Source: Candidatus Eiseniibacteriota bacterium
GTDB taxonomy: Bacteria; Joyebacterota; Joyebacteria; Joyebacterales; Joyebacteraceae
Reading direction: 5' to 3'
Length of the DNA: 36,651 nucleotides
Assembly (NCBI GenBank): GCA_030595835.1
Contig: JAUVLG010000021.1
Coordinates: 1-36,651, forward strand
A model generated the notes under the pieces. The model saw only the letters and a list, made by a program, of their open reading frames with translations. It made no database searches and was not told the DNA's origin. Shown piece after piece: positions 6,787 through 31,732 of this stretch. How positions within the stretch are numbered: position 1 is the stretch's first letter; every line of letters begins with the position of its first letter. The position numbers and the translations under genes were made by a program.

Positions 6787-7048
6787 CGCGAGTGGATTCA
6801 CTTGAGTGCGAAACAGGTGTCGCCACCCGATTCTGCGGCAGGATGTGTGTGCATATACTGAACACTGAGCCACGTGGGCAGGCCACGACACAGGATATCC
6901 TGGGCTTTCGGAGAACGACCGACAACTTGCCGCTTGCATACGAAAGAAAAGCCCCCTAACATTTATTAGTAGGTTGCCCAACGAAAGCTCAGTTACATAG
7001 AGTCCGGTAGCCCATCACCCCACCACGGGCCCCTTGGCAGGAGAGGCC
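6787..7048. other. intergenic region before the Fic gene
   Basis: No gene is seen here. It contains a locally AT-richer patch (6940-6975) that is unusual for this high-GC window and holds the best promoter candidate for the Fic gene. No convincing terminator follows hflX. Confidence 0.5.
6934..6962 (+). promoter_or_regulatory. possible promoter for the Fic gene
   Basis: TTGCAT (6934-6939) and TAACAT (6957-6962) are separated by 17 bases, and the -10 lies in the only AT-rich patch of the gap. The -35 match is poor (three of six), so this is weak. Confidence 0.3.
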
Positions 7049-8218
7049 ATGATCCACACGAGAGCCACGGGACGGCACATCGATTTCTCAGCAGGTGGTG
7101 AGAACTACAGCGCGTTCGTGCCCCACCCGTTGCCACCCGATCCACCGCTCGGTCTCAGCGAAAGCGTGCAGGATCTGAGGGACCGCGCCAACAGAGCGCT
7201 GGGAAGACTGGATGGGGTCGCGACTGTTCTGCCTGATGCCTCGCTCTTCGTCTACATGTATATTCGGAAGGAAGCCGTGCTCTCATCACAGATTGAGGGT
7301 ACCCAGTCATCTCTGTCGGAGCTACTCCTGTTCGAAAGCGAGCAAGCTCCGGGAGTCCCCCTCGATGATGTAGAGGAAGTGTCGAAGTACGTTGCTGCAA
7401 TGGAACACGGGCTGCGTCGTCTCGGCAGTGGATTCCCTCTCTCCTTAAGACTCATCCGTGAGATCCACGGAGTCCTGCTGTCTGGGGGGCGAGGCAGCGA
7501 GAGAACGCCAGGGGAGTTCCGCCGTTCCCAGAACTGGATTGGTGGGACGCGCCCCGGGAACGCGGTCTTTGTGCCGCCGCCGCCGGACATGGTCATCGAC
7601 TGTATGGGTGCTCTTGAGAAGTTCCTACAGGATGATCCGGTGAAGACCCCAGTCCTGATCAAGGCAGCACTGGCGCACGTTCAGTTTGAGTCGATCCACC
7701 CCTTCCTTGACGGCAACGGGCGCTTGGGTCGGCTGTTGATCACCTTACTTCTGTGCGCAGAGGGAGCTCTGCGCCAGCCACTGCTGTACCTCAGCCTGTA
7801 CTTCAAGAGCCACCGCCAAACATACTACGATCTACTCCAGAGAGTCCGGAGCGACGGCGATTGGGAAACATGGGTGGAGTTCTTTCTGTCCGGGGTGATT
7901 GAGACTGCCCAGCAGGCAAGCGATGCGGCGGACGCGATCCTGCGGCTGTTCGACGAGGACAGGAAGCGCATCGAGGCCCTCGGGCGGGCCGCGAGTTCGA
8001 CGTTGCGGGTCCACGCGCAACTCCGGAAGACACCCCTCATCTCCATTCCGGTAGCGTCGAAGCGCTCGGGGCTCTCGGGGCCGACGGTCGGAGGATCAAT
8101 GGGGCGCCTGGTTGATTTGGGGATCGTCCGTGAGGTGACAGGCAATCGCCGAAACCGAGTGTTCGTCTATGACCGATTCGTCGACATACTGAACGAAGGG
8201 ATGGAGTCCACTCCGTGA
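7049..8218 (+). CDS. Fic-domain protein adenylyltransferase
   Basis: This 389-residue Fic protein probably transfers AMP from ATP to hydroxyl side chains of a target protein. The catalytic motif is HPFLDGNGRLGRLL, with the catalytic His at residue 217. An inhibitory helix motif of the class II type, SSQIEGT (Glu at residue 83), lies N-terminal, so the enzyme is predicted to be self-inhibited. The N-terminal part matches the Fic_N domain (LSSQIEGTQSSLSELL). The C-terminal 80 residues look like a winged-helix DNA-binding module (SIPVASKRSGLSGPTVGGSM), as in many stand-alone Fic proteins. The ATG at 7049 is preferred over TTG at 7034 because GGAGAGG lies just before it. The gene stands alone, and the target is unknown. 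Confidence 0.9.
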   Translation: MIHTRATGRHIDFSAGGENYSAFVPHPLPPDPPLGLSESVQDLRDRANRALGRLDGVATVLPDASLFVYMYIRKEAVLSSQIEGTQSSLSELLLFESEQAPGVPLDDVEEVSKYVAAMEHGLRRLGSGFPLSLRLIREIHGVLLSGGRGSERTPGEFRRSQNWIGGTRPGNAVFVPPPPDMVIDCMGALEKFLQDDPVKTPVLIKAALAHVQFESIHPFLDGNGRLGRLLITLLLCAEGALRQPLLYLSLYFKSHRQTYYDLLQRVRSDGDWETWVEFFLSGVIETAQQASDAADAILRLFDEDRKRIEALGRAASSTLRVHAQLRKTPLISIPVASKRSGLSGPTVGGSMGRLVDLGIVREVTGNRRNRVFVYDRFVDILNEGMESTP

Positions 8219-8556: not shown

Positions 8557-11500
8557 CTAGTAGGAGCCAACCAGGTCGATGAACCAACCGTGGCTCTCAT
8601 AAGAGAGGTCGGTCAGGTCGTCGGAGAAGTCGGTGAAGTTGTAGCCTACGCCGACTCTCAGGTTGTCGCCGATCTGCCTGTATGCTCCAGCCAGCACGCC
8701 CTGGCGTTGGTCATCAGTCTCCTTCACGCTCAGCCAGCGGTACTCCACCAGGCCATCCCACTTGTTCGTCACGTGGTATCGTGCGCGCGCGGCGGCGAAG
8801 TCGACCGACGTCCTGTGCCAGTCCCCGGCGCCCCTCTCGAATCGCACGTCTCCCTGTTTCCTCGCGTACTTGCCACCCATCTCCACTCTATGGCCGAACG
8901 GGTGCATACCCTCCAGGGACATGATATGAGAGCGCTCGTCAACCCCGTCGTCCGTATCCTGAGCCTCGGACGCGAGGTCGGACAGGTAGGTGTACCTGCC
9001 GAGCACATTGAAACGGTCTCCGCAGATCGGACGATACGCGAAGCCAACGCCCGCCTCCACGAATCTGGCGAGTTCCGCGTCGGTGTTCTGCTCCTCGGTC
9101 TGTGACAGGCTGAGCTTGCCGGTGAGGACGAGGTCCTCGGTGGCGCGGTGGGTGATGGAGTTCGTCGTCAGCCACTGTGTCCTGTCGCTCGGGCCCGTGT
9201 CACTTCGGTACTCCAGCTTGCCCCCCAGCCGCGTGCGGTCGTGCCCGTAACTCGCGGACACCGTGGCGACGTCGCGCTCGACGTCGGTGCCCTCTGACTC
9301 GAGGGCGCTCGACTGCAGTGAGAGCCCGACCGTGGCCCATTCCGAGAACTCGTAGTCCGCGCCATACACTTGAGCGGCACGTGCCCCGTCGTCCTCGTGA
9401 GCGAACTGATGCTCCGTGAACACGGCTAGTTGATCGCTCACATTGCGCCGCTGGCCCAGAGTGAAGACCCCGCTCTCCCCGTGCGTGTGGTCGGTGGAAA
9501 GCGTGTAGGTGCCATACATGGTCTGCGTGTCGTTGAGGGCGTAGTCGGCGCCGATGTCGGCGGACGTTCCCAGGTCGCCGCTGCTGCCCTCTGCCCTGAG
9601 GGCGAGCTTGTCGCCGATTCGACCCTGGAGCCCGACGGTGCCGAGGTTGTTGTCGTCGGCTCCATCGCTCTTGTCCACGGTGAACTGCCCGATGCCGTAG
9701 ATGTTGAGCGAGCGTGTGACGTCGTACCCGATTCGTGCCGCGGCGAGCGTCGCGTTCGTTCTCTCGTTATCGTCCGGCTCGAACGACTTGAGCCTGATCT
9801 CGGCTCCTACGTCCCACCTGTCGGTCACGTCGTAGTCGGCCTGGAGGCTGTAGGTTTGCTCGGTGTCGATCCCATCACGTTCGCTCACGGCTCCCCTCGC
9901 GGACACGGACAAGACATCGGTTATCAGCATGCGGCCCTCTCCGCCGTATTCCGTGATCTTGGTTCCGTCCGGCAGGCGCGCGATGGAGAAACCGGCGTCC
10001 TTCTGTTTCCACCATCCGGCCAGGGCACCGTCGTAATCGCCGTGTGAGATGTCACCGAAGTCGACTCGGGCCTCGACTCCCAGGGCCTGACCGGTCATGT
10101 CGTCCTCGTCCTCGGCCAGGTTCTTGTCGCCGAAGCTCAGGCCACCATCGCCAGAGACGAACGCGCTCGAAACCTGGCGGGCCTGGGACTCCGCGTACTC
10201 GGTTTTGATGTAGGTGCCGCCGCCCGTCGTGAGAGTCAGGTCGGCGCCCTTGAGCTCGTATTCCGAGTCGCCCCTGCCCTCCTGGACGTAGGTCCCGCCC
10301 AGCGCGACCGCGTCGGTGAGCCAAGCCTTCGCGCGGCCGCCGTACGTTGCGTCCGCGGGCTCGAACCCGCCGGGAACGTACTCGTAGTCGACCAGCAAGA
10401 AGACGCGGTTCCCATCGAGAGGTGTGTCCTTGACTATCGACGGTCCCTCCTGTCCGGCGACCCCGGACAGCGGCCGTGTGAGGATAACGCGCCCCTGGAT
10501 CTCATCGATCTCATAGTCGCGCCCGCGCACGAGCACGATGTTCTCTACGACACGTGTGGTCTCGCGCTCTCGGACCTCCACCCAGGCCTTCTCGGATCCC
10601 TGGACGATGTCATCATGCCTGAGGTAGTAGAGACTTCCGCCGGTTGCTATGAACTCGTTGTGGGCGGACGCCGTCTGTGCCTCCGACGCAAACCCGATGA
10701 GCTCGGCCCTGCGCTCGCCCGTCTCCGTGGACGCCACGCTGCCGTAGTGCAGCTTTGCACCGTAGAGGCTGCGGTTGTAGCGCGCGAACTCCGTGCCGGT
10801 GATGCCCGTGTTGTAGTTGCCCCACAGGGCTTGTGACTCGTCCCAGTCCAGTCGGACGTAGAACTTGCCCTGTGTATCCGTGTCCAGCGTGGTCACGGAA
10901 TCGTCGCCGTAGACCGGGTAGTAGTGGTCCGGGTCGAGGCGCCTGAACATGCTCTTCGGATCGGTTCTGTCCAACCCGTCGAGCAGACTGTCCAGGTCGT
11001 CCTCATCCGTGTCCAGCTGAGCCGTCACGAGGTACCTGCCCTGGATCATGCCCTTGAGGTAGAATGCGACGCGCCCGTCGACGAAGACCTCCTCGTCGTA
11101 GTGGTAGTCGGAGGCCAGGGGCTCGATGCTTCCCGAGACGTCGTTCCGGCCGGCCGTGACGTTGGCCACACCAACCATGAAGAAATAGTCCTCGGGGATC
11201 TGCGTGATATCCGCCGACTCTCCAGACTCCGCGCCCGACGGGAGTTGGACGCCGAAGTTCACGCGCTCAGTAACGCCCTGGCTTACCCTCATGACCCTGG
11301 GGTTCTCGGTCGTGAAGCGGGTTCCGTTGGGGAGGAACGCGGCATCCACCTTGACGGCGATGTTGCGGCCGCGGTCGAAGCGCGCATCCTCGATTCCCGC
11401 CAGGTGGTAACGGCCCATCGGGTCGGTGACGACGACGAGCCCTTCCGGCGTTGCCAACCTGGCACTTGCGATGCCCTCCTCGCACTGGCCCTCGTTGGTC

Positions 11501-14500
11501 AGTGTGACGACCAACCTGTAGCCCGAAGGTTCGGCCGGGGGTTCAACAAACACGTCGCTCGAGATCTCCCTCTCTCGGTCGACCAGCTCGTCATACCAGA
11601 CCTGAACCTCCGCTCGCCTGTTGAGCGCCATACCCTCGGGCGTGTCGTTGCTCGCAACAGGCACGTCCGGTCCTCTGCCCTCTGACGAGACTGCCGTCTC
11701 GGGCAGTCCCAGGGCGGAGGCGAGCAGACGTCCGACCTCTTCCGCGCGCGAGCGGCCCAGGCCGTAGTTGTCGCCGTAGATACCGGCGGCGCCGGCGCTC
11801 AGGCGCTCATTGTCGGTGTGACCCACGATGTGAAGTCTCACATTGTCCTTGTCGCTCAGGGTCTCAATGACGGCCCTCAGCCTTTCCACGTACTCGGCGT
11901 CGATGTCAGACTTGCCCGACCGGAACCGGATGGGCTCGATGACGTCGGTCAGCTTGATCGTGTCTGTTTCGGTCACGATCATCGTGTGTGTCACCCACTC
12001 ACCGTCGTCGGGCTCGATCGGAATGAGCTCGCGCGTGATCACGAGCCTCTGACCGTTCAAGCCGGCGGCGACGACCCCGATATGGTCGGTCGTCACCCGG
12101 CCGGCGGCGTCCAGCACGACGCGGCTGCCCTCGGCGCTCGAGACCACGATGTCCTCAACATCGGAGCTCGGGAGTTCGGCCTCTATCACGATTCGGCTGC
12201 CGGGTTCACTCCAGCCAGGGACGTCCCCGAAGCTGATGCCTTCGGCGAGCGACGCCGGGCCGTCGAGCGGCCTCGGTCCGTCCCCCGTGTCTATCGTCGT
12301 CGTTCCAGGGACGAAGGCGTCGGTTGGTGCACCACCTCTGATTATAACGTCTGTCGCGAGCGCTGGATCCTGCCAGCCGTCGCCGTCGCGGTCATGGAAG
12401 ACCTTGCCTATGATCGCGTTACTGTCGAACGTGGCGTCGTAGACGAACTCTACGCTCGTGCCCGCGGCGCTGCCGATCGGCTCGTCGTCCCTGTAAGGAA
12501 TAACCACGTTCGCGTGGTCGCCGGGCGTGACACCCGCGCCGGGGCGAAGCAGGTATGTTATGAGCACGATCTCGGTCGGGCCGAAACTGACCGGACCGAA
12601 CACCACCGGACGATCCCCGGACACGTTCAGGGACGTCTCGACGTCGTCATCCGTTCCGATCGCGCCATCGTCGCCGGCGCGTCTGAGCGTCGCGGAATCC
12701 TCGACGTACCGGAACCCCGCTGGGACGAAGTCGTGGAAGGTCACGCCCTCCGTCGGGACTTCAGAGCTATTCTCTGCCGTCAGCGTGTAGCCGATTGTCC
12801 CGCCGGTCGACACATGGTCGCTCCACGCGGACTTGGAGACGAGGATCTCGCCCTCAAGCTGGTCGGGATCGAGGTAGTCGGGCGTCCCGTCACCATCGTG
12901 ATCGTCGTCGCTGTAGTCGCCGTTCTCGTTGGCGTCCTCGTCCTCGGTCGGAATGTCGTCATTATCGTCGTCGATGTCGCGCCAGTCTCTGATTCCGTCG
13001 CCGTCGGTGTCCTGGACTGGCGAACTGGAGCCGGTCGCATTGTCCTGACCGGGGCCTTCGACGGTGTCGTACGCGTCATCGAGCCCATCGCCATCGCCGT
13101 CCGTTCCTGACGGGGTGGTGTCCGCGATGCCGTCGTGGTTCGCGTCGTGTCCCTCGATGGCATCCGGGACGGTGTCGTCGTCGGAGTCGAGGTCGAGGTG
13201 ATCCGTCGTACCGTCTCCATCGGTATCGACCGGAACTATGAACGCCCCGCCGTTGTCAGGGTCGTACGCGTCGTCGAGCCCATCGCCGTCGCTGTCACCG
13301 CCCGTGGGTGGGACGTATTCGCCCTCCTCCTGTGACTCGACGTTGTCTACGATACCATCGTTGTCCGAGTCGATGTCCAGGCTGTCGGGAATCCCGTCGC
13401 CGTCGGTGTCGATCTCACCGTCTCCCTCGTCCACGTCCAGAATGCCGTCGTCATCATCGTCGATATCCACGCTGTCCTCAACACCGTCACCGTCGGTGTC
13501 CAGAGCGATCTGGATGTCCTCTTCCAGGTCGTCGCTGGTCGTGTTGCTGTCGTCCTGGTCGAGATCTACATCGGTGATGATGTTCGTGATGATGCTTCCG
13601 GCAGAGGTCGGGTCAACAGTCACCTGAATGTTGAGCACGGCGCTCTCGCCTGCCGCGAGTGTTCCCACCGACCACACGCCGGAGTGGCTCACGTAGCTGC
13701 CACCGCCGTCGTCACTGACGTAGGTAACGCCTTCGGGGAGAGGGTCTGTGATGGAGACGTTGGTGGCCATCGCCGGGCCGTTGTTTGTTACGGTGATGGT
13801 GTAGGTGATCGTAGCGCCGACGACCGGACTGTTGTTATCCACGGTCTTCGTAACAGCGAGGTCGGTATCGTTATCGATACTTATGTCGACGTCCGGATCG
13901 TCCTCTGTGGCGTTGCTGTCATCCTGGTCGGCTACTACCTCGGTCACCACGTTGGTAATCACCGACCCCGAGGTGCCGGTGTCGACCGCGGCCTGGATGT
14001 TGAGGGCTACCGCCTCACCGGACATCAGCGTGCCGATGCCCCAGATACCTGTGGCGCTGTCGTAGGCGCCGCCCCCGTCGTCGGACACGTAGGTCACTCC
14101 GTCCGGCAGGACGTCGGTAACCGAGACGCTGGTCGCGGTGGTCGGCCCGTTGTTTGTGACCGTGATGGTGTAGGTGATGACGTCGCCCTCGGAAGGCGTC
14201 CCGTCATCCACCGTCTTGACGACGACCAGGTCTGTCTCATTCTCTACGGTGATGCTCTCCTCGAGGTCGTCATCCGAGATGCCGCTGTCCACTTGGTCGA
14301 CCAGCACCTCCGTGATAATGTTGGTGATGACGCTGCCCGCTGTGCCCGCGTCCACCTGGGCCGTTATGCGCAGAGCGTCCGTTCCGCCCGCGCGAAGCGG
14401 CTCCACGACGGTCCAGACCCCGGTCTCGGGGTCGTAGCTGCCACCCCCGTCGTCCGCGAAGTAAGTCACCCCGGTCGGAAGGAGATCGGTCAGCGAGACC

Positions 14501-17193
14501 CCCGTCGCGTCGGCGGGTCCGTTGTTGGTCACGGACAGCACGAACGTGATGGTCTGTCCCTCGGCGGGCGTCTGGTCGTCGACCGTCTTTGTGATGAACA
14601 GGTCGACGTCCGTCGGCAAGGAGATGGCGACCGATGCGGTGAGGTCGTCCTCCGTTATGTTCGTATCGTGCTGGTCCTGCGAGACGTCGGTCACGGTGTT
14701 AGTGATGAGCGTGCCCGATGTGCCCGCGTCCACCGTCGCCTGAATGCTCAGTGAGGCGGAGGCGTCGACGTCGAGTGTGCCGACGTCCCATACTCCGGTG
14801 CCACTGTCGTAGCTGCCTCCTCCGTCGTCGGCGAGATATGTGACGCCGGCGGGGAGCGGGTCAGTAACCGTGACTCCGGTGGCCTGAGATGGGCCGTTGT
14901 TGACCGCCGTGATGGTGTAGGTGATGGTGTCGCCTTCCGCGGCGACCGGCACGTCCACGATCTTCGAGACCGCGAGGTCCACAAGTGAGTCGGCGTCCAG
15001 GTAGTCGGGCGTCCCATCGCCGTCACCATCGTCGTTGGTCGGGTCTCCGTCGCCGTTGGCGTCTTCCGGTCCGACCGTCAGAAGGCCGTCGTCATCATCA
15101 TCCGTGTCGCGCCAGTCGCGCGCGCCGTCGCCGTCCGTGTCCTGGAGCGGCGAGTTTGAGCCGGCCTCATTGAACTCCGTCGGGCGGACGATCGTGTCGT
15201 AGGCGTCGTCCAAACCGTCGTCATCGCTATCGACGCCGGTCGCGATGGTATCGGCAATGCCGTCGTGGTTGGCGTCGTGACCTTCTATGTAGTCCGGAAC
15301 GTTGTCATTGTCCGAGTCGAGGTCGAGCAGATCGTTGGTACCGTCGCCGTCTGTGTCGACAATGACTATCGGAGTGCCACCGTTGTCGGTGTCGTAGGCG
15401 TCGTCGAGCCCGTCTCCGTCCGTGTCGATACCCGCAGCCGGGATGTAGGCGCCATCCGCCTGAGCCTCGACATTGTCGACTATGCCGTCGTTGTCGGAGT
15501 CGATGTCCAGGCTGTTTGGAACGCCGTCCCCGTCGGTATCAACAAGGCCATCACCCTCATCTACGTCAAGCACGCCGTCATCATCGTCATCCACATCGGT
15601 GATGTCCGGTTCGCCGTCCCCGTCGCTGTCTGCGGGGATGGTGACGGTAACCGTCGCCGTGTCGGTTCCTCCGTAGGCGTCGCCTATTTCGTATGTGAAG
15701 GTGTCGGTGCCCGAGAAGCCCAGCGGGGGAGTGTAGACAATGTGGTCGTCCGTTGGGTCGCCCGGCGTGCCGTTGTCGTTGATAATCGCCGTCCCGCCCT
15801 GAGCGGTGACCGCGTCGACGCCGATTATGGAGATCTCGTCTCCATCGGGGTCGCTGTCGTTGGCGAGGACGTCGACGGGAACGGGAGTATTGATCAGCGT
15901 GCCGGCGCCGTCATCAACGGCGTCGGGTGGCTGGTTCCCTACCCTTACTACGGCGGTGGCCGGGGCGTTGTCCGCCGTGTCCTCGGTGGTGTCTATCTGT
16001 TCGATGCCTATGAAGGCGACCGCGGAGTTCGTGTAGAACCCGTCTACGGCGGGGAAGGACGCGTTGAATGTGAGCCGCGTGGTGCCGCGGCTCGGTACGG
16101 TGAAGGGTCCGTTCCATGTAAGCACCTGACCCGCAATGCCGGGGTCGGGTATCGGTGAACCGTCCAGTGCCGACGTGCCGGCCACATACGTCGTGATGTC
16201 GGGGCTCACCGGCAGGGTGTCGATGATCTCATTGATCACGATGTCGACCGATCCAGAGTTACTGAGAGTTAGAGTGAACGTGCTGGTGCCGCCGTCGGGC
16301 AGCACCTCCGGTGACGCGCTCTTCCTCAGGATCGTCAGATTGTCCGCGCTGGAGATGGGTGGGATGGCGGCGAGGCTCGAGATGGTCGTGTGCTTGATCT
16401 GCGTGCCGCTTCGAATCTGCACGATTGGGCTCACGGCCGTGGGTGTCTCGCTCGTCGCCACCGCGCGGAGAATGTAGACGGCAACGTAGTGTGTCTGCGC
16501 GGAATTGGCCGGTACGTAGTAGAGCTGATCCGTGAAGTGGGCGACGTTCCCACCTGAGAGCGTGATATCCGTCGCGAGAAGCTCGTACCTGTCTGCGGGC
16601 CAATCCGGGAAGCTCGCCGCCGTGAATGCCATGGACGGCGTTTCACCGATTGTGCCGCTGTTCCCGTTCACGGTAATGGTGACCAGACCACCCAGGACCG
16701 GAGGAGTAGGGCCCGTCACGACCGTCTCGACCTTGTTGGCGTTCGCCGTGATCGTATGGAGCACCTGCGCGAGTGTGAACACCTCGCTGGTGAGCGGCAA
16801 CCCGGCAGGCGGCATTCCGTCGTAGACGGTCACCGTGTGTCTCTGGGGCGTCGGAGTTTCGTACGTGGCCTGCAGGAAGATGAAAGCGGTCTTGCTCTCG
16901 CCGACCGCGATCTCTCCCAGGTTGACGAGTCCGGTCTCGGTGTCCGCGACCGATACGGAGCCTCCGGTGAAGTGCGACACCTCAACCCAGATCTCCTGGT
17001 AGGGATCGGGACCGACGTTCTCCACCGTGTAAGAGACGTACTGACAGTAGATGTCGTCGCCGACGTCGATGTAGAACTCCGGCGCAGAGGTGCGTGTGAT
17101 GGTGACGGCTCCAAGAGCGATCGATGGAACCAGCAACGCGAGAAGAACGAGGAACATGAATGCGCGCCCTGATCTGTACGGTCCGGGTTTCAT
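8557..17193 (-). CDS. giant DUF11/TSP3/OmpA outer-membrane protein
   Basis: This 2878-residue exported protein has a signal peptide (residues about 10-29, ending ALG). Approximate layout: 282-400 DUF11-like; 420-518 cadherin-like/Ig module (NQPPDAVDDG, VLANDSDPDGDE); 520-736 thrombospondin type 3 calcium repeats (DTDGDG, DSDNDG); 737-1228 four tandem DUF11 repeats of about 123 residues (TDLAVTKTVD, TVTNNGP, DDGGGSY); 1230-1442 a second TSP3 block nearly copying the first; 1445-1585 DUF11-like; 1750-1863 an OmpA peptidoglycan-binding domain (IVGHTDNERL, LGRSRAEEVG, NRRAEVQVWYDE); 1883-1988 a carboxypeptidase-regulatory/SdrD-like beta fold; 2001-2878 alternating strands typical of an outer-membrane beta-barrel, ending in tyrosine. 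The ATG at 17193 leads straight into the signal peptide; an in-frame ATG at 17307 would bury it. It is probably a calcium-stiffened surface or anchoring protein, with the barrel in the outer membrane. This role is inferred from the domains. Confidence 0.88.
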   Translation of the reverse strand: MKPGPYRSGRAFMFLVLLALLVPSIALGAVTITRTSAPEFYIDVGDDIYCQYVSYTVENVGPDPYQEIWVEVSHFTGGSVSVADTETGLVNLGEIAVGESKTAFIFLQATYETPTPQRHTVTVYDGMPPAGLPLTSEVFTLAQVLHTITANANKVETVVTGPTPPVLGGLVTITVNGNSGTIGETPSMAFTAASFPDWPADRYELLATDITLSGGNVAHFTDQLYYVPANSAQTHYVAVYILRAVATSETPTAVSPIVQIRSGTQIKHTTISSLAAIPPISSADNLTILRKSASPEVLPDGGTSTFTLTLSNSGSVDIVINEIIDTLPVSPDITTYVAGTSALDGSPIPDPGIAGQVLTWNGPFTVPSRGTTRLTFNASFPAVDGFYTNSAVAFIGIEQIDTTEDTADNAPATAVVRVGNQPPDAVDDGAGTLINTPVPVDVLANDSDPDGDEISIIGVDAVTAQGGTAIINDNGTPGDPTDDHIVYTPPLGFSGTDTFTYEIGDAYGGTDTATVTVTIPADSDGDGEPDITDVDDDDDGVLDVDEGDGLVDTDGDGVPNSLDIDSDNDGIVDNVEAQADGAYIPAAGIDTDGDGLDDAYDTDNGGTPIVIVDTDGDGTNDLLDLDSDNDNVPDYIEGHDANHDGIADTIATGVDSDDDGLDDAYDTIVRPTEFNEAGSNSPLQDTDGDGARDWRDTDDDDDGLLTVGPEDANGDGDPTNDDGDGDGTPDYLDADSLVDLAVSKIVDVPVAAEGDTITYTITAVNNGPSQATGVTVTDPLPAGVTYLADDGGGSYDSGTGVWDVGTLDVDASASLSIQATVDAGTSGTLITNTVTDVSQDQHDTNITEDDLTASVAISLPTDVDLFITKTVDDQTPAEGQTITFVLSVTNNGPADATGVSLTDLLPTGVTYFADDGGGSYDPETGVWTVVEPLRAGGTDALRITAQVDAGTAGSVITNIITEVLVDQVDSGISDDDLEESITVENETDLVVVKTVDDGTPSEGDVITYTITVTNNGPTTATSVSVTDVLPDGVTYVSDDGGGAYDSATGIWGIGTLMSGEAVALNIQAAVDTGTSGSVITNVVTEVVADQDDSNATEDDPDVDISIDNDTDLAVTKTVDNNSPVVGATITYTITVTNNGPAMATNVSITDPLPEGVTYVSDDGGGSYVSHSGVWSVGTLAAGESAVLNIQVTVDPTSAGSIITNIITDVDLDQDDSNTTSDDLEEDIQIALDTDGDGVEDSVDIDDDDDGILDVDEGDGEIDTDGDGIPDSLDIDSDNDGIVDNVESQEEGEYVPPTGGDSDGDGLDDAYDPDNGGAFIVPVDTDGDGTTDHLDLDSDDDTVPDAIEGHDANHDGIADTTPSGTDGDGDGLDDAYDTVEGPGQDNATGSSSPVQDTDGDGIRDWRDIDDDNDDIPTEDEDANENGDYSDDDHDGDGTPDYLDPDQLEGEILVSKSAWSDHVSTGGTIGYTLTAENSSEVPTEGVTFHDFVPAGFRYVEDSATLRRAGDDGAIGTDDDVETSLNVSGDRPVVFGPVSFGPTEIVLITYLLRPGAGVTPGDHANVVIPYRDDEPIGSAAGTSVEFVYDATFDSNAIIGKVFHDRDGDGWQDPALATDVIIRGGAPTDAFVPGTTTIDTGDGPRPLDGPASLAEGISFGDVPGWSEPGSRIVIEAELPSSDVEDIVVSSAEGSRVVLDAAGRVTTDHIGVVAAGLNGQRLVITRELIPIEPDDGEWVTHTMIVTETDTIKLTDVIEPIRFRSGKSDIDAEYVERLRAVIETLSDKDNVRLHIVGHTDNERLSAGAAGIYGDNYGLGRSRAEEVGRLLASALGLPETAVSSEGRGPDVPVASNDTPEGMALNRRAEVQVWYDELVDREREISSDVFVEPPAEPSGYRLVVTLTNEGQCEEGIASARLATPEGLVVVTDPMGRYHLAGIEDARFDRGRNIAVKVDAAFLPNGTRFTTENPRVMRVSQGVTERVNFGVQLPSGAESGESADITQIPEDYFFMVGVANVTAGRNDVSGSIEPLASDYHYDEEVFVDGRVAFYLKGMIQGRYLVTAQLDTDEDDLDSLLDGLDRTDPKSMFRRLDPDHYYPVYGDDSVTTLDTDTQGKFYVRLDWDESQALWGNYNTGITGTEFARYNRSLYGAKLHYGSVASTETGERRAELIGFASEAQTASAHNEFIATGGSLYYLRHDDIVQGSEKAWVEVRERETTRVVENIVLVRGRDYEIDEIQGRVILTRPLSGVAGQEGPSIVKDTPLDGNRVFLLVDYEYVPGGFEPADATYGGRAKAWLTDAVALGGTYVQEGRGDSEYELKGADLTLTTGGGTYIKTEYAESQARQVSSAFVSGDGGLSFGDKNLAEDEDDMTGQALGVEARVDFGDISHGDYDGALAGWWKQKDAGFSIARLPDGTKITEYGGEGRMLITDVLSVSARGAVSERDGIDTEQTYSLQADYDVTDRWDVGAEIRLKSFEPDDNERTNATLAAARIGYDVTRSLNIYGIGQFTVDKSDGADDNNLGTVGLQGRIGDKLALRAEGSSGDLGTSADIGADYALNDTQTMYGTYTLSTDHTHGESGVFTLGQRRNVSDQLAVFTEHQFAHEDDGARAAQVYGADYEFSEWATVGLSLQSSALESEGTDVERDVATVSASYGHDRTRLGGKLEYRSDTGPSDRTQWLTTNSITHRATEDLVLTGKLSLSQTEEQNTDAELARFVEAGVGFAYRPICGDRFNVLGRYTYLSDLASEAQDTDDGVDERSHIMSLEGMHPFGHRVEMGGKYARKQGDVRFERGAGDWHRTSVDFAAARARYHVTNKWDGLVEYRWLSVKETDDQRQGVLAGAYRQIGDNLRVGVGYNFTDFSDDLTDLSYESHGWFIDLVGSY
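12865..13505 (-). repeat. second TSP3 calcium-repeat block
   Basis: This part of the giant gene encodes DxDxDG calcium loops and is a diverged copy of the block at 14985-15637. Both share the same order of landmarks: DVDEGDG, DSLDIDSDNDGIVDNVE or equivalent, GLDDAYD, IEGHDANHDGIADT, and RDW followed by an acidic run. The pair indicates an internal duplication of about 215 residues. Confidence 0.8.
13510..14985 (-). repeat. four tandem DUF11 repeats
   Basis: Four units of about 370 bases lie between the two TSP3 blocks in the giant gene. Each starts with a (V/T)DL..(T/S)K.VD strand, carries TITYTIT.TNNGP-like and VTY.(A/S)DDGGGSYD-like segments, and ends in I(T/S)(N)…VxxDQxDSN. DUF11 folds are extracellular beta sandwiches that often act as stalk spacers. 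Confidence 0.8.
14985..15637 (-). repeat. first TSP3 calcium-repeat block
   Basis: This stretch encodes repeated acidic calcium loops such as DSDGDGEPDITDVDDDDDG, DTDGDGVPNSLDIDSDNDG and DTDGDGTNDLLDLDSDND. It is the counterpart of the block at 12865-13505. The loops create strong local codon bias (GAC/GAT/GGC), which also generates long but meaningless open frames on the opposite strand. Confidence 0.8.
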
Positions 17194-17266
17194 TCGAGCA
17201 GACTCCAGGTTGCAGGTGGAGGGCCCAGGGCCCGTGTCCGACTTCGATCCGTGCTTGACGTCCTGC

Positions 17267-17289
17267 GGTGGCCCCGGAACGGGGCCACC
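17267..17289 (-). promoter_or_regulatory. hairpin in giant-gene leader
   Basis: A perfect 9-bp inverted repeat (GGTGGCCCC / GGGGCCACC, 5-base loop) lies about 75 bases before the giant gene's start codon and after its candidate -10 box, so it would form in the mRNA leader. No T-run follows, so it is not a terminator. mRNA stabilisation or regulation is possible. Confidence 0.5.
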
Positions 17290-17302
17290 TGCGTATGTTA
17301 AC

Positions 17303-17311
17303 ATCATAACA
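17303..17311 (-). promoter_or_regulatory. possible extended -10 promoter, giant gene
   Basis: Read on the minus strand, TGTTATGAT gives an extended -10 (TG-n-TATGAT, five of six to TATAAT). No good -35 lies 17 bases upstream, which is tolerated with extended -10 sites. It would give a leader of about 100 bases. Confidence 0.4.
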
Positions 17312-22860: not shown

Positions 22861-23048
22861 CGGTGATTCGTGCATCCCCGTCTCATCTTGACGGCAATTC
22901 GTATCGGCGATCCCAGAACAGAGGGTCACCGGGTCCACCGGTGGCGTCGTTGGATAATCGTGTCCGATCTGAACGGACGGTACTTCGCGCCCGTCCGGGC
23001 GGCCTCCTCACGGTGAGGGAGTTGTGCGGACAGACAAGGGGGAGAGGC

Positions 23049-26000
23049 ATGAGACTGACGTCTAGTCTTCGGGTGACGGCTGTCATCGCGGTTCTGCTGC
23101 TGGCCTGCAGTGCGATGGCCGGGGTCGTGACCCGCCACATCGAGTTCTCGGAGCCGATGATCACTTCCGAGGGCGACTATCATCGAATCACAATGACCGA
23201 CGCGCGGAGCTACGGAGACCCTGGTGAGCCCAGGCTTCCCCTGACAGGCGTCAGGCTGCTGCTCCCGCCGGGCGACGTTGTCTCCGAAGTCCGCGTTATC
23301 CCGGGCCAGAGGGTCGTGCTCGGAGACGGCTATGTCATCGAGCCCGGGCAGATGCAGTATCCGCTGTCCCACGCGGGCCCACGTCAGATCGCGGAAGCGG
23401 ACTATCCCGCCGGCTCGACGTATCCGGCGGCGCTTCACTCGGACCCCGTGTCCGGGCGCTACCGCGGGTATGGCATCACGAATATCGCGCTCTCTCCTGT
23501 TGAGTATGAGGTGGGAAGCGGCACGGTCTCGTACTACACGAGCATGGACATCGAGGTCATCACCGAGCCCGATCCTACCGGCATGCGCGGCGTCGAGCAG
23601 ATGATAGTCCACGACGACGCAACGTTGGGTCGGCTGTACTCGATGATCGACAACCCGATGGACGCGATGCAGTACGCGGGCATCGAGCGTGTGGCAAAAG
23701 TCAGCCGCTCGCTGGATCCAGCGCTCGCGTACAACTACATCATCATTACGACGAACGCATGGGACGACTACCTGGACGGTTACGTCGAGTGGAGAACCCA
23801 GCGGGGCCAGAAGGTCGGTGTGTTCACCAAGGAGTGGATAGTTCTGAACTACACCGGCGACGACACACAGATGCAGATCAGGAACTTCGTCATCGACGCG
23901 TACAACACGTGGACGCCCGACTACGTTCTGATCGTCGGCGACGGCGAGCCCTCGGACAGCAACGGCGTTCCGGTGCGGGGTTTCTACGCCACTGCCTACG
24001 GTGAAACTGACAGCAACATCGCCTCCGACCTTTACTACTCGGCCCTCGACGGCACGTGGAATGCCGACGGCGACGGCTACTACGGCGAGATCGGAGAAGA
24101 GGACTTTTACCCCGAGGTCGGTATCGGTCGCGTCGCCTGCAGCAGTGCCGCCGACATCGCCAACTTCGTCACGAAGACCCAGCGCTATTCGGACACGCCT
24201 ATCGTCTCCGAGTGCGACGAGGCCCTGATGGTCGGTGAGCTGCTCTGGACCGGCAGCCCCAACACCTATGGGGGAACCTACAAAGACGAGATCATGAACG
24301 GCGGGACGTACAACGGATACACCACGACGGGTTTCCCGGGCACGATGAACGTCGGGACGCTCTACGACCGCGACGTGGGTAGCTGGACAAAGGCGACCCT
24401 TATCAACCTGATGGAAACGGGAATGAACATCGTCAACCATCTGGGCCATTGTAACGTCGACTGGTTCATGAACATGTCGAGCGCCGATATCCCCTCGTTC
24501 GACAACGACGGCACGGTTCACAGCCTGAACTTCGTCTACAGCCAGGGCTGCTACGGTGGGTCATTCGACAACCGGCTTATCGGCGGCGGCTACGGCGGCG
24601 ACTGTTTCTCTGAGAACTTCGCGTGTGACGACGGCGGCGCGGTCGCCATTGTCTCGAACACGCGTTACGGCTGGGGCGATCCGGGCGGCACGGACGGCTC
24701 GTCGCAGTTCTTCGACCGCGAGTTCTTCGATGCCATCTTCGGTGAGGACATCTACACGCTCGGGTATGTCAACGATGACTCGAAGATCGACGTCCTCTGG
24801 GCCATCAATACCGGTGCGAACAGGTGGTGCTACTACGAGCTGACGCTGTTCGGAGACCCGGCCATGGAACTATGGACGGCCGAGCCCATCGCGCTGACGG
24901 CGACGCACAGCCCGACCGTGATGGTGAGTCAGCCGGACTTCGAGGTCAACGTCACTGATGCCTCGCGCGGTGCGGTCGAGGGCGCCATCGTCACCGTCTA
25001 CACGGACGACCTCTCGGTCTACGATACGGGTGTCACGGACGGCACTGGAGCGGTGACGCTGCATCCTAATGCTACGTCGATCGGGACGCTGCACGTCAAG
25101 GCGACGGTCAACAATCACCTGGTCAGTGACACGACGGCGGACATCATTCCCACGTCCGGGGTGTATCTTGCTCTGGACAGCTACACCATCGATGACGATA
25201 CCACGGGGGGGAGCAACGGCAACGATGACGGCAACGTCGGCGCCAGTGAGACCATTGAGTTCCCCGTCACCATCGGCAATTTCGGAACGGATATGGCCTA
25301 CGGCGTCACCGCGACGCTCTCCTCGAGCAGCAGCCGAATCGACATCCAGGACGCATACAAAGAGTTTGGCGACATCGCGGGCAGCGGCACGGCGACGAGC
25401 CCGGACGGCTTCGTGTTCTTGGTCGATTCCGACACGCCTGATGGCGAGGTGATCCCTCTCACGCTGACGATGAGCGACTCCGCGAGTCGGGAGACGTGGG
25501 AATCCTACATCAATATCATCGTTCACGCGCCGGTCATTGATGCACAGGGTTACGTCGTGGACGATCCGCCCACCGGGGGCAACGGCAACGGTTGCTTCGA
25601 GGCCGGTGAGACCGTCGAGATCACGGTGACGCTCGAGAACACCGGAAGCGTGATGAGCACAGGGCTCACGGGCACGCTGACGACGACCGATCCCAACGCC
25701 ACCATACTCGATGGCACGGCTGCGATCGTGTTCCTCAATCCGGACAGCAGCGGTGTGTTGTCGCCCAATTTCACCGTCCTGCTGTCGCCTGTTACGCCAC
25801 AGGGTCACGAGGTGGTGTTCGACCTGGCGATCGGAGCAGACTGGGGTTACTCATCGAGCGCTCAAGTGTCGCTTATCACGAACGGCGATTTCGTCGACGA
25901 CATCGAGACTGGTGAGGGCGAGTGGACGCACGACAACGTCACGACAGGGTTTGGTGACCAGTGGCACATCGATTCCTACCGCTCACACTCGACGACACAC

Positions 26001-26741
26001 AGCTGGAAGTTCGGCGGCTCGGGCTCGGGCACGTACGGTGATTCCTCGGACGGTGTTCTCGTCAGCAAGCCCCTTTGCCTGGGCGCGGACGGTGAGATGA
26101 CGTTCTGGCACTGGATGGCGGTGGAAGAGGAGAGCGCGACCTCCGCGTGGGACTGCGGTCTTGTTGAGATCTCGATCGACGACGGCGAGACCTGGGACGT
26201 TCTCTATCCGGATGGTGGATACAGCCATGCGAAGAACGACAACAACGCGAACCCGCTGCCCGAAGGCACGCCGTGCTGGTCCGGCAGCTTCACCTGGCGA
26301 CAGGAGACCTTCGACCTGACGAGCTACGAGGACGCGAAGGTCCAGATACGGTTCCACTTCGCGTCAGACGGTTACGTCACGCTCGAAGGCTGGTATGTGG
26401 ATGACATCAGCATTACATCCACTCTGCCGCAGACCTCCGTGCCCGAGGGTGAGGAGATCCCCAGGACGTTCGCTCTCAGGCAGAACGCCCCGAACCCCTT
26501 CAATCCGGTCACGGTAATCCAGTATCAGCTTCCGAGAGAGACACACGTGACGATCGACGTGTTCAGTATCGCCGGCAAGCTGGTCGCGACGCTCGTTGAT
26601 GAAGAGCAGGATGCGGGTGTCAAGGCGGTCACGTGGGACGGCACAAGCGCGACGGGGGAGAAGGTCGCAAGCGGCATCTACATGTACAGGATGCAGGCGG
26701 GCGATCACACCTCCAGGAAGATGATGGTCCTTCTGAAGTAG
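23049..26741 (+). CDS. secreted C25 (gingipain-type) protease, FlgD-like C-terminus
   Basis: This 1230-residue secreted cysteine protease has a signal peptide (residues 1-25, ending AMAG). A gingipain-type propeptide and catalytic domain follow, with the catalytic His467 in NHLGHCNVDW and Cys501 in FVYSQGCYGGSFDN. Behind it lie beta-sandwich regions (FGDPAMELWTAEPI; then two CARDB-like units, FPVTIGNFGTDMAYGVTATL and VEITVTLENTGSVMSTGLTG). Next is an immune-inhibitor-A/MAM-like jelly-roll (about 950-1120; LEGWYVDDISI). The last 85 residues are a FlgD-like Ig fold (LRQNAPNPFNPVTVIQYQLP; ASGIYMYRMQ) used as a C-terminal sorting or anchoring tag in FCB-group phyla. The ATG at 23049 follows GGGGGAGAGG; the in-frame GTG at 22863 is rejected because it hides the signal peptide. 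It probably digests extracellular proteins. Monocistronic. Confidence 0.93.
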   Translation: MRLTSSLRVTAVIAVLLLACSAMAGVVTRHIEFSEPMITSEGDYHRITMTDARSYGDPGEPRLPLTGVRLLLPPGDVVSEVRVIPGQRVVLGDGYVIEPGQMQYPLSHAGPRQIAEADYPAGSTYPAALHSDPVSGRYRGYGITNIALSPVEYEVGSGTVSYYTSMDIEVITEPDPTGMRGVEQMIVHDDATLGRLYSMIDNPMDAMQYAGIERVAKVSRSLDPALAYNYIIITTNAWDDYLDGYVEWRTQRGQKVGVFTKEWIVLNYTGDDTQMQIRNFVIDAYNTWTPDYVLIVGDGEPSDSNGVPVRGFYATAYGETDSNIASDLYYSALDGTWNADGDGYYGEIGEEDFYPEVGIGRVACSSAADIANFVTKTQRYSDTPIVSECDEALMVGELLWTGSPNTYGGTYKDEIMNGGTYNGYTTTGFPGTMNVGTLYDRDVGSWTKATLINLMETGMNIVNHLGHCNVDWFMNMSSADIPSFDNDGTVHSLNFVYSQGCYGGSFDNRLIGGGYGGDCFSENFACDDGGAVAIVSNTRYGWGDPGGTDGSSQFFDREFFDAIFGEDIYTLGYVNDDSKIDVLWAINTGANRWCYYELTLFGDPAMELWTAEPIALTATHSPTVMVSQPDFEVNVTDASRGAVEGAIVTVYTDDLSVYDTGVTDGTGAVTLHPNATSIGTLHVKATVNNHLVSDTTADIIPTSGVYLALDSYTIDDDTTGGSNGNDDGNVGASETIEFPVTIGNFGTDMAYGVTATLSSSSSRIDIQDAYKEFGDIAGSGTATSPDGFVFLVDSDTPDGEVIPLTLTMSDSASRETWESYINIIVHAPVIDAQGYVVDDPPTGGNGNGCFEAGETVEITVTLENTGSVMSTGLTGTLTTTDPNATILDGTAAIVFLNPDSSGVLSPNFTVLLSPVTPQGHEVVFDLAIGADWGYSSSAQVSLITNGDFVDDIETGEGEWTHDNVTTGFGDQWHIDSYRSHSTTHSWKFGGSGSGTYGDSSDGVLVSKPLCLGADGEMTFWHWMAVEEESATSAWDCGLVEISIDDGETWDVLYPDGGYSHAKNDNNANPLPEGTPCWSGSFTWRQETFDLTSYEDAKVQIRFHFASDGYVTLEGWYVDDISITSTLPQTSVPEGEEIPRTFALRQNAPNPFNPVTVIQYQLPRETHVTIDVFSIAGKLVATLVDEEQDAGVKAVTWDGTSATGEKVASGIYMYRMQAGDHTSRKMMVLLK

Positions 26742-29331: not shown

Positions 29332-30435
29332 TTAGATTGTGAACTTCCCGTCCTTGTAGATGATCTTCCCATCCGCGTAGATCTTCCCGCCATTGCGCAT
29401 GTCATTGACGATGTCCCAGTGCACGCCCGATTGGTTCTTGCCGCCCGATTCGGGAATCGACGCGCCCAAGGCCATGTGGAACGTGCCGCCGATCTTCTCG
29501 TCGAACAGCGTGTTCCGTGTGAATTTCTGGACGGCGTAGTTGGTTCCTATGGCGAACTCGCCCACGCGGCGGGCCCCCTCGTCGGAGTCGAGCATCGCGT
29601 GGAGGAAGTCCTCGTTCTTGGAGGCGCGGGCCTTGACGACACGCCCCTTCTTGAACGTCAGTTTGATACCGTCCGCCTCTCTGCCGGAGTAGAATCCGGG
29701 GAATGAGAAGCTGACCGTGCCCTCCATTGAGTCCTCGACGGGTCCCGTGAAGATCTCACCGTCAGGCATGTTCGCCTTGCCGTCGCAGTTGATCCACTTG
29801 CGGCCCTCGACGTTCATTGTGAGGTCGGTCCCCTCGGCAACCACTCGTATCTTCTTGCGCTCGTTCAGCTGCCGGCAGATCTTCTCCTGCTTGCCGTGTA
29901 CTCTCTTCCACGCCGCGATCGGGTCCTTGACGTGCAGCATGCAAGCCTTGAGCACGAAGTCCTCGTAGTCCTCGAGCGACATCTCGGCGTCCTGAGCCGA
30001 GGCGTTGCAGGGGAACTGGGTTCCCACCCACTTGAGTTCGCCGGCCGCCTCGCGCTCCATGAACCTCATGAAGAGTCTGCTCGTCGCCTTGCTTCTCATG
30101 GCTTGCTTCTTCGGGTCGACGCCGGCCATCGACTTCGTGTTCTCGCCGCCCCAGAGGGAGATTACCTTGTCGACCTTCTCGACCTCGAACTCCGAGATGG
30201 GGTTGACGAACTTGAGCTGGTGCTGTTTCGCGCTCTTGTAGAAGCTTTCGGCCAGCCCCGGCAGACCGATGCGGAGGAATGGATGGCCACCCACCTTGAG
30301 CACCTCACGGTAGATCTCGGAGATCAACGGTGCTGCGGTCGCCCCACCGCTTATCTCTACCAGCTCGCCCTTCTGGACTTCGACCGAGTAGTTGACCAGC
30401 ACTCCCGCGAGCTTCGTGTATCTTGGATCCCTCAC
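29332..30435 (-). CDS. aminopeptidase, peptidase M29 family (copy 2)
   Basis: This 367-residue cytoplasmic metallo-aminopeptidase (AmpS/PepS/thermophilic-metalloprotease family) releases N-terminal residues from peptides. Metal-ligand segments of the family are visible: DGEIFTGPVEDS (Glu), VGEFAIGTN (Glu), DEKIGGTFHMALG (His) and SGVHWDIV (His, Asp). It is a clear paralog of the gene at 30447-31553, with long shared runs such as CNASAQDAEMSLE and GGKIYADGKIIYK. The GTG start (VRDPRYTKLA) lies 11 bases after the upstream paralog's TAA, which overlaps the ribosome-binding sequence AAAGGAG, so translation is probably coupled. It is somewhat shorter than typical M29 enzymes (about 410). Confidence 0.9.
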   Translation of the reverse strand: MRDPRYTKLAGVLVNYSVEVQKGELVEISGGATAAPLISEIYREVLKVGGHPFLRIGLPGLAESFYKSAKQHQLKFVNPISEFEVEKVDKVISLWGGENTKSMAGVDPKKQAMRSKATSRLFMRFMEREAAGELKWVGTQFPCNASAQDAEMSLEDYEDFVLKACMLHVKDPIAAWKRVHGKQEKICRQLNERKKIRVVAEGTDLTMNVEGRKWINCDGKANMPDGEIFTGPVEDSMEGTVSFSFPGFYSGREADGIKLTFKKGRVVKARASKNEDFLHAMLDSDEGARRVGEFAIGTNYAVQKFTRNTLFDEKIGGTFHMALGASIPESGGKNQSGVHWDIVNDMRNGGKIYADGKIIYKDGKFTI

Positions 30436-30446
30436 TTGAGTCTCCT

Positions 30447-31553
30447 TTAGCCCAGTGTGAACTGGCCGTTCTTGTAGATTATCTTGCCGTCAGCGTAGAT
30501 CTTCCCGCCGTCTCGCATGTCGGCCACCATGTCCCAGTGAATGCCGGACTTGTTCTTCCCGCCGGACTTCGGGTAGGAGGATCCAACCGCCATGTGAATG
30601 GTGCCGCCTATCTTCTCATCGAAGAGAGTGTTCTTCGTGAACTTCTCTACCGCGTAGTTCGTGCCGACCGCGATCTCGCCTACAAATCTCGCGCCCTTGT
30701 CGGTATCGAGCATCGCGTGCAGAAACTCCTCACCCTTGGACGCCGTGGCCTTCACGACCTTCCCCTTTTTGAACGTGAGGCGAACGTCGTGGACCTCACG
30801 TCCGCCGTAGCACGCGGGGAATGTGAACGCGATCTTGCCCTCGACCGAGTCCTCGATGGGCCCCGTGAATATCTCGCCGGAGGGCATGTTGTTCCGGCCG
30901 TCGCTGTTTATCCACGTCCGCCCGGCGACACGCATCGAGATATCCGTTCCCTCCTTGACGATCCTGATCTTCCTGACGTCGTTCAGATACCTACAGAACT
31001 TCGCCTGTCTGCGTCTGATGCCCTTCCAGGCGGCCACGGGGTCCTTTTTGTGCACGAGACAGGCGCGAAGGACGAAGTCCTCGTACTCCTCAAGGGACAT
31101 CTCCGCGTCCTGCGCCGAGGCGTTGCACGGGAACTGCGTGACGCACCATGCGAGCTCCCCGGCGGCGACGCGGTCCTGGTAGCGCTGCCTCACTGCCGAC
31201 TGCGTCCTGGCAACGGTTGTCTGCTTCGCGGGGTCGACGCTGGTGAGCGATTTCGTGTTCTCGGCGCCGCGGATCGCCAGGAGTTTGTCTATGCTGTCGA
31301 TCTCGTGCTCGGCGAGCGGGCTCACGAACTCCAGCTGGTGTTTCTTCGCGTGCTCGTAGAAGATCTCCGTGGTACCCGGCAGAGCCACCCGTGTCATCGG
31401 ATGGCCGCCCGCCTCGAGGATCTCGCGGTACACCTCACGCACCAGCGGCGCCGCGGGCAGTCCCGCGCGTATCAGGACGAGGTCTTTCTTCTGAACATCA
31501 AGGCAGTACTCGACCAGCACCTTCGCGAGCTTCTGGTATCTTGGGTCTTTCAC
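30447..31553 (-). CDS. aminopeptidase, peptidase M29 family (copy 1)
   Basis: This 368-residue paralog of the downstream gene has the same metal-ligand segments: SGEIFTGPIEDS, VGEIAVGTN, DEKIGGTIHMAVG and SGIHWDMV. Both copies begin DPRYxKLAxVLV and end GGKIYADGKIIYKxG(K/Q)FT, so they arose by tandem duplication. Differences cluster in the N-terminal half (residues about 20-140), hinting at different peptide preference or hetero-dimer formation. The GTG start at 31553 follows AAGGAGAG. An in-frame extension to 31706 runs through an inverted-repeat element and is rejected. It is the first gene of a run with M29 copy 2, mscS-type and usp-type genes. Confidence 0.9.
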   Translation of the reverse strand: MKDPRYQKLAKVLVEYCLDVQKKDLVLIRAGLPAAPLVREVYREILEAGGHPMTRVALPGTTEIFYEHAKKHQLEFVSPLAEHEIDSIDKLLAIRGAENTKSLTSVDPAKQTTVARTQSAVRQRYQDRVAAGELAWCVTQFPCNASAQDAEMSLEEYEDFVLRACLVHKKDPVAAWKGIRRRQAKFCRYLNDVRKIRIVKEGTDISMRVAGRTWINSDGRNNMPSGEIFTGPIEDSVEGKIAFTFPACYGGREVHDVRLTFKKGKVVKATASKGEEFLHAMLDTDKGARFVGEIAVGTNYAVEKFTKNTLFDEKIGGTIHMAVGSSYPKSGGKNKSGIHWDMVADMRDGGKIYADGKIIYKNGQFTLG

Positions 31554-31588
31554 GTTCTCTCCTTGTTTTATGACCGCTGATGTCGAGT

Positions 31589-31732
31589 CGTAGGCCGCAG
31601 GTCTAGTGTCGGCGTACGTGGTCGGCCGGGTGTTACTCCGCCGCGAGTTCAGGCGCGTAAGCGCCGTGTGTCTGAGCGCCGGGGTAACACCCGGCCGGCG
31701 ACACACGCGGCCCTTGGGATCTGCGGCCTACG
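31589..31732. repeat. 144-bp nested inverted repeat between nadE and M29 gene
   Basis: Two inverted repeats are nested. The outer pair is 12 bp and perfect (CGTAGGCCGCAG at 31589-31600, CTGCGGCCTACG at 31721-31732). The inner pair is 24 bp (31621-31644 with 31676-31699), with one mismatch and two G-T pairs; its core is GGCCGGGTGTTAC / GTAACACCCGGCC. At the tip sits a 5-bp hairpin GGCGC-GTAA-GCGCC (31652-31665), a GNRA-type loop if the + strand is transcribed. The right arm covers the nadE stop codon. It could be a miniature inverted-repeat element, a structured RNA or an intercistronic processing/attenuation site. Confidence 0.85.

Follow-up and report, generated by a model that had tools for sequence, protein, structure and literature searches.

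DUF11, now renamed CLIPPER, is an Ig-like stalk domain of fibrillar adhesins with an intramolecular Lys-Asp-Asn isopeptide bond, and its structure was solved from a Gram-negative Acinetobacter adhesin which bears an OmpA-like anchor (PMC12617251). Large outer-membrane barrels are known from type 9 secretion, where the translocon is SprA, a barrel of 36 strands that a review from 2020 termed the largest known (PMC7463736). Wall connectors are known as well: in SlpA and OmpM a domain that binds peptidoglycan precedes a barrel at the C-terminus (PMC9388160, PMC10628300), and OmpM serves both as tether and as nutrient channel (PMC10628300). How Gram-negative DUF11/CLIPPER adhesins cross the outer membrane and are attached to it is not explained in the literature that we found. 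Here we describe a gene in which such parts, each of them already known, are united in one chain. It is located on the minus strand (8557-17193) of a stretch of 36,651 nucleotides (contig JAUVLG010000021.1, positions 1 to 36,651, in the following the window) from Candidatus Eiseniibacteriota bacterium, assembly GCA_030595835.1, a draft of 265 contigs. We assign a probability of roughly 0.6 to the reading that its product is a surface adhesin of the fibrillar type, which carries its own outer-membrane barrel and its peptidoglycan anchor in the same chain.

The gene is real. An open reading frame (ORF) extends without interruption on the minus strand over positions 8557-17307 with its stop at 8557. 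No stop codon interrupts a run of 2991 codons, and the GC content of 0.81 at third codon positions backs coding on this strand, with a coding signature along the whole ORF. Chance is excluded because the OmpA and DUF11 scores far exceed the cut-offs and homologues have the same domain order. There are two candidate starts, ATG 17193 (Met39, 2878 amino acids) and the upstream ATG 17307 (2916 amino acids). Judged from the sequence the 2878 amino acid product is likelier, because the start at Met39 yields a canonical Sec signal peptide (MKPGPYRSGRAFMFLVLLALLVPSIALGA; residues 39-67, 17107..17193). No obvious Shine-Dalgarno sequence precedes either of the two ATGs. Residues are numbered here according to the 2916 amino acid form; subtraction of 38 gives the numbering of a preliminary description of this DNA, which was made from the letters alone. 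That description had proposed a single gene at 8557-17193 with a signal peptide, a cadherin-like module, two near-duplicate TSP3 blocks around four DUF11 repeats, an acidic N-terminal region of the calcium-binding type, an OmpA domain in mid-chain and a barrel of about 880 residues behind it. The domains called with Pfam, with which the NCBIfam picture agrees, and the structure predictions bear out all of these points. All features of the gene are on the minus strand.

The region that follows the signal peptide (residues 68-322, 16342..17106) matched no family in the Pfam scan and is a candidate for the tip or adhesive part. DUF11 (PF01345) is found with 395 bits in six stretches. The first DUF11 domain (residues 323-457, 15937..16341), in which the Lys and Asp of the triad are present, is followed by a Big_9/cadherin-like Ig domain (residues 458-556, 15640..15936, 68 bits). 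Four further DUF11 domains in tandem (residues 776-1262, 13522..14982) are located between the two TSP3-like acidic blocks (residues 557-775, 14983..15639, with nine DxDxDGxxD-type motifs, and residues 1267-1484, 12856..13509), which share 71% identity over 219 amino acids. A sixth DUF11 domain (residues 1489-1630, 12418..12843) and a linker domain of the 'IIGKVFHDRDGDGWQ' type (residues 1631-1786, 11950..12417) lead to the OmpA domain. This linker is common to the closely related fused protein L020/L046 and to the upstream gene of the Vibrio campbellii locus described below.

The four central repeats contain complete triads with the expected spacing (K782-D816-N870, K907-D941-N996, K1031-D1065-N1119 and K1154-D1188-N1242). 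The 935 residues 556-1490 contain no lysines other than four at the predicted isopeptide positions, and throughout the family the Lys is conserved in 120 of 131 and the Asp in 128 of 131 DUF11 domains. It is plausible from the residues that the predicted isopeptide bonds form. The triad spacing is nearly equal to that of the CLIPPER adhesin B9T28_05395 from Acinetobacter silvestris (PMC12617251), with 34 residues from K to D here and 33 in 9IFR. A comparison of the DUF11 region with PDB sequences gave short chance matches only, and 9IFR was not among them. In contrast to B9T28_05395 the window protein has two TSP3 blocks, and its chain runs on beyond OmpA into a giant barrel; a text search of PMC12617251 revealed mention of neither a barrel nor a downstream gene. 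The stalk is acidic (17-38% in residues 560-1490), and residues 560-1905 are free of cysteines. The TSP3 blocks would be expected to bind calcium, and the stalk may depend on it.

The OmpA domain (residues 1787-1905, 11593..11949) matches Pfam at residues 1795-1897 with 41 bits against a cut-off of 27.2, and D1832, N1847 and R1854 align with the wall-contacting residues of OmpA-like domains. Among the 83 OmpA domains of the family the wall-contacting Arg is kept in all and the Asp in 79. AlphaFold predicted the domain with a confidence (pLDDT) above 90 in a model of residues 1772-2916 (59 sequences), for which the first Foldseek match was 3td5 (TMt 0.83), the A. baumannii OmpA domain in complex with a peptidoglycan peptide. 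Since the wall-contacting residues are conserved, the domain should be periplasmic.

For the C-terminal 881 residues (2036-2916, 8560..11202, conserved core 10108-11172) no Pfam or NCBIfam family was found above cut-off. In the longer model OmpA is followed by a poorly ordered linker domain (residues 1906-2035, 11203..11592, low confidence) and then by long strands in succession. The barrel alone (68 sequences) was modelled with pLDDT 81.5 and a predicted TM-score (pTM) of 0.75. This model contains 33 long strands in succession between about residue 2320 and the C-terminus, preceded by about eight others; a total of 36-42 was estimated from the DSSP string, which cannot show barrel closure or a free lumen. 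The top Foldseek ranks of the barrel-only model are all outer-membrane barrels (Cir, LptD, SprA, SlpA, FimD, TonB receptors), and many transport barrels are among the matches. Because the TM-scores are low, as is expected when strand numbers differ, these matches place the barrel in a class and not in a family. The models thus point to a very large outer-membrane barrel. The C-terminal strand HGWFIDLVGSY (8560..8592), with an aromatic residue at its end, is a beta-signal of the beta-barrel assembly machinery (BAM) type. The window protein ends GWFIDLVGSY, and the last residue is Y or F in 85 of the 92 loci with a closed 3' end. Omp85/BamA-type genes are found in the window genome. A profile of 68 barrels gave noise only against PDB sequences, and in a viral fold library the matches were limited to generic porin or tail folds.

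Membership in several known groups of barrel proteins was rejected on the features examined. SprA has a comparable strand number and is found among the structural matches (6h3i, 8gl6, 6h3j), and in type 9 secretion PorE supplies an OmpA-type wall anchor. However, the TM-scores are just 0.15-0.19, there is no sequence similarity and the profile of 68 barrels matched no SprA chain in the PDB. Moreover, SprA serves many cargoes, whereas the barrel here has one adhesin as its partner, in the same chain or in a neighbouring gene. SlpA, which has 30 strands and is also among the structural matches, and OmpM differ by their SLH domains (SlpA also by a coiled coil) and have neither OmpA nor a DUF11 stalk. 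Their sequences were not matched when the barrel profile was searched against the PDB, and the Pfam scan of the window protein found no SLH match but OmpA in that place. OmpA and OprF likewise combine a barrel and an OmpA-like wall-binding domain in one chain, but there the small 8-stranded barrel comes first, while here OmpA precedes a far larger barrel. Type Va autotransporters are single polypeptides with an N-terminal passenger and a C-terminal barrel as well. The barrel here is about three times larger, with more than 30 predicted strands, does not match the 12-stranded PF03797 barrel and is separated from the passenger by a wall-binding domain. The type 11 secretion system cargo (PMC12282271) and the BapP adhesin (PMC12153261) are different systems.

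A tblastn search against plasmids revealed proteobacterial homologues with up to 54% identity across the conserved core. The RefSeq label of such relatives is 'TonB-dependent receptor' in several cases and 'outer membrane protein transport protein' in others. A TonB-dependent receptor was rejected, since neither the PF07715 plug nor the PF00593 barrel was hit when the window protein and split relatives were scanned with Pfam. One RefSeq 'TonB-dependent receptor' (Nitratireductor, L033) has no plug or receptor Pfam domain, and the same holds for the other split barrels scanned, which calls this annotation into question. In five annotated plasmid loci a separate barrel gene directly follows a giant DUF11, SdrD_B or 'OmpA family' gene. 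The barrel gene of Vibrio campbellii (an unannotated record) likewise follows a giant gene, and there the three parts are three genes, which encode a DUF11 protein without OmpA, the barrel and, downstream of the barrel, a lipoprotein that has two OmpA domains (L032:10704-11609).

A scan of one genome per species gave at least 580 barrel relatives. The best 80 of them were retained, and they span Pseudomonadota, Myxococcota, Thermodesulfobacteriota, Nitrospirota, Campylobacterota and Rhodothermota; the architecture counts refer to the nearest relatives and do not estimate prevalence. We classed 96 loci, of which L020 and L046 are the same contig, with purpose-built hidden Markov models (HMMs) of OmpA, of DUF11 and of the core of the barrel. 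The majority (49 loci) are split, with an upstream ORF ending in OmpA and the barrel ORF directly downstream or overlapping. In 23 loci, window included, OmpA and barrel are fused in this order, and seven are fused without OmpA. Six loci are split with a DUF11 gene but OmpA was not seen, six barrel ORFs were initially scored alone, and five loci are truncated. When the loci scored alone were rechecked with Pfam, their neighbours turned out to be DUF11, CshA-repeat, Calx-beta, SdrD_B, cadherin or invasin-type genes. Two distant loci (L023:9221-12408 and L024:2-3438) show the barrel first, as a barrel-only gene of 850-890 amino acids with a DUF11 gene directly downstream. The DUF11 arrays vary in length from few to 17 copies. 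A crude signal-peptide test, which is only indicative, was positive for 38 of 61 split barrel genes.

OmpA after the barrel within the same ORF was found in none of the 96 loci. The preliminary description had regarded the OmpA-before-barrel order as unusual, but among these loci it is the rule, and SlpA and OmpM show that a peptidoglycan anchor in front of a large barrel is not an exceptional topology either (PMC9388160, PMC10628300). The models do show a barrel behind residue 2000, and homologues with a soluble C-terminus did not occur.

In a quick tree of 89 cores the window sequence adjoins L046, which is from a genome of the same family, and both are grouped with fused forms of gamma-proteobacterial, myxobacterial and rhodothermal origin. 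On this tree six changes are needed between the fused and the split state, at least two of which are forced by well supported branches. We read this pattern as gene fusion which joins partners that are probably functionally coupled. As the assembly is a draft of 265 contigs and close relatives are mostly split, one might suspect that assembly or gene calling has joined two genes. This is very improbable, as the long ORF lacks stop codons and has a coding signature throughout, and the same fusion is seen in the same-family L046 and in unrelated genomes of several phyla. An assembly artefact was rejected on the latter ground.

We suppose that the Sec signal peptide would deliver the chain to the periplasm and that the aromatic C-terminal strand would direct the 881-residue barrel to BAM. 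OmpA, just before the barrel, would grip peptidoglycan, so that the base of the adhesin stays periplasmic. The lysine-poor, cysteine-free and acidic stalk would then reach the surface, either through the barrel or beside it. There calcium bound to the TSP3 blocks, together with isopeptide bonds of the DUF11 repeats, may fold and stiffen it, and the N-terminal tip would be held off the cell, possibly for adhesion. Because OmpA is located just before the barrel and the stalk is N-terminal to OmpA, the stalk either stays periplasmic or crosses the outer membrane with its base retained.

According to the first of these options, already raised in the preliminary description, the whole N-terminal region is a calcium-dependent spacer or scaffold between wall and outer membrane, and the barrel is a mere membrane anchor as in SlpA and OmpM, which connect both layers and whose wall-binding part precedes the barrel (PMC9388160, PMC10628300). 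OmpA indeed binds the wall and adjoins the barrel. However, SlpA binds the wall with a domain at its extreme N-terminus, and a coiled-coil spacer separates this domain from the barrel. In the window protein OmpA is located near the barrel and 1700 residues are N-terminal to OmpA, so these residues do not span wall to membrane. An extended array of 17 DUF11 copies would exceed the periplasm, array length varies, and the partner genes carry adhesin-type domains (CshA, Calx-beta, cadherin, SdrD_B, invasin-type), DUF11 itself being a stalk domain of fibrillar adhesins (PMC12617251). We therefore consider a periplasmic spacer unlikely. The stalk-type domains, the adhesin-type partners, the arrays of up to 17 DUF11 copies and a dedicated barrel at nearly every locus, large enough in principle, suggest that the stalk probably crosses the outer membrane. 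If so, the chances that it passes through the lumen of its own barrel appear about even.

Alternatively, the barrel may be a general channel or nutrient porin which is wall-tethered and carries a structural stalk, and the stalk surfaces by another route or is not exported. The transport-type RefSeq names, the transport barrels among the structural matches and the double role of OmpM (PMC10628300) fit this idea. It is nevertheless slightly less likely than the spacer, as no TonB-dependent receptor plug or porin Pfam family was found. Moreover, wherever the upstream sequence is long enough, the barrel is nearly always paired with a giant adhesin-type gene, which is unexpected for a general porin.

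Some observations weigh against a surface adhesin with its own barrel and anchor. As OmpA must be periplasmic, the stalk needs a path across the outer membrane, and such a path is absent from the model. The same-family protein L020/L046 (G014; 3187 amino acids, many TSP3-like blocks, the same barrel) is fused and gave no DUF11 match with the local HMM. It also has no OmpA, hence the anchor is dispensable. Split forms have two extra beta-sandwich-like domains before the barrel which the window protein does not have. The barrel is present in 8 of 79 related genomes (the window genome counted) and absent from all five congeners among them. Experimental work on any family member was not found in the literature.

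Neither the pairing of adhesin and barrel nor their fusion was found described in the open literature; subscription papers were outside the search. The conserved neighbouring barrel, which is repeatedly fused to the adhesin, is a concrete and testable candidate for how such adhesins cross and attach to the outer membrane, and it suggests an uncharacterised, widespread way to build and display surface adhesins. With 36-42 predicted strands the barrel would rank among the largest single-chain outer-membrane barrels (SprA 36, PMC7463736). More tentatively, the barrel family could be a dedicated giant pore that exports one isopeptide-stiffened adhesin stalk, with OmpA stalling and anchoring the base on the wall. 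That would be a distinct export route, realized by two genes or by a self-exporting single chain.

Elsewhere the window encodes a C25 peptidase of the gingipain type (22863-26741, plus strand; 1292 amino acids), which bears an InhA-like MAM domain and has a FlgD_ig/Por_Secre_tail-like C-terminus, and a tandem pair of M29 aminopeptidase-family genes (29332-30435 and 30447-31706, minus strand). A Fic-family gene (7034-8218, plus strand) adjoins the giant gene in convergent orientation. A Fic gene is also found near the Croceibacterium pair (L030:15133-16212), which is probably a coincidence.
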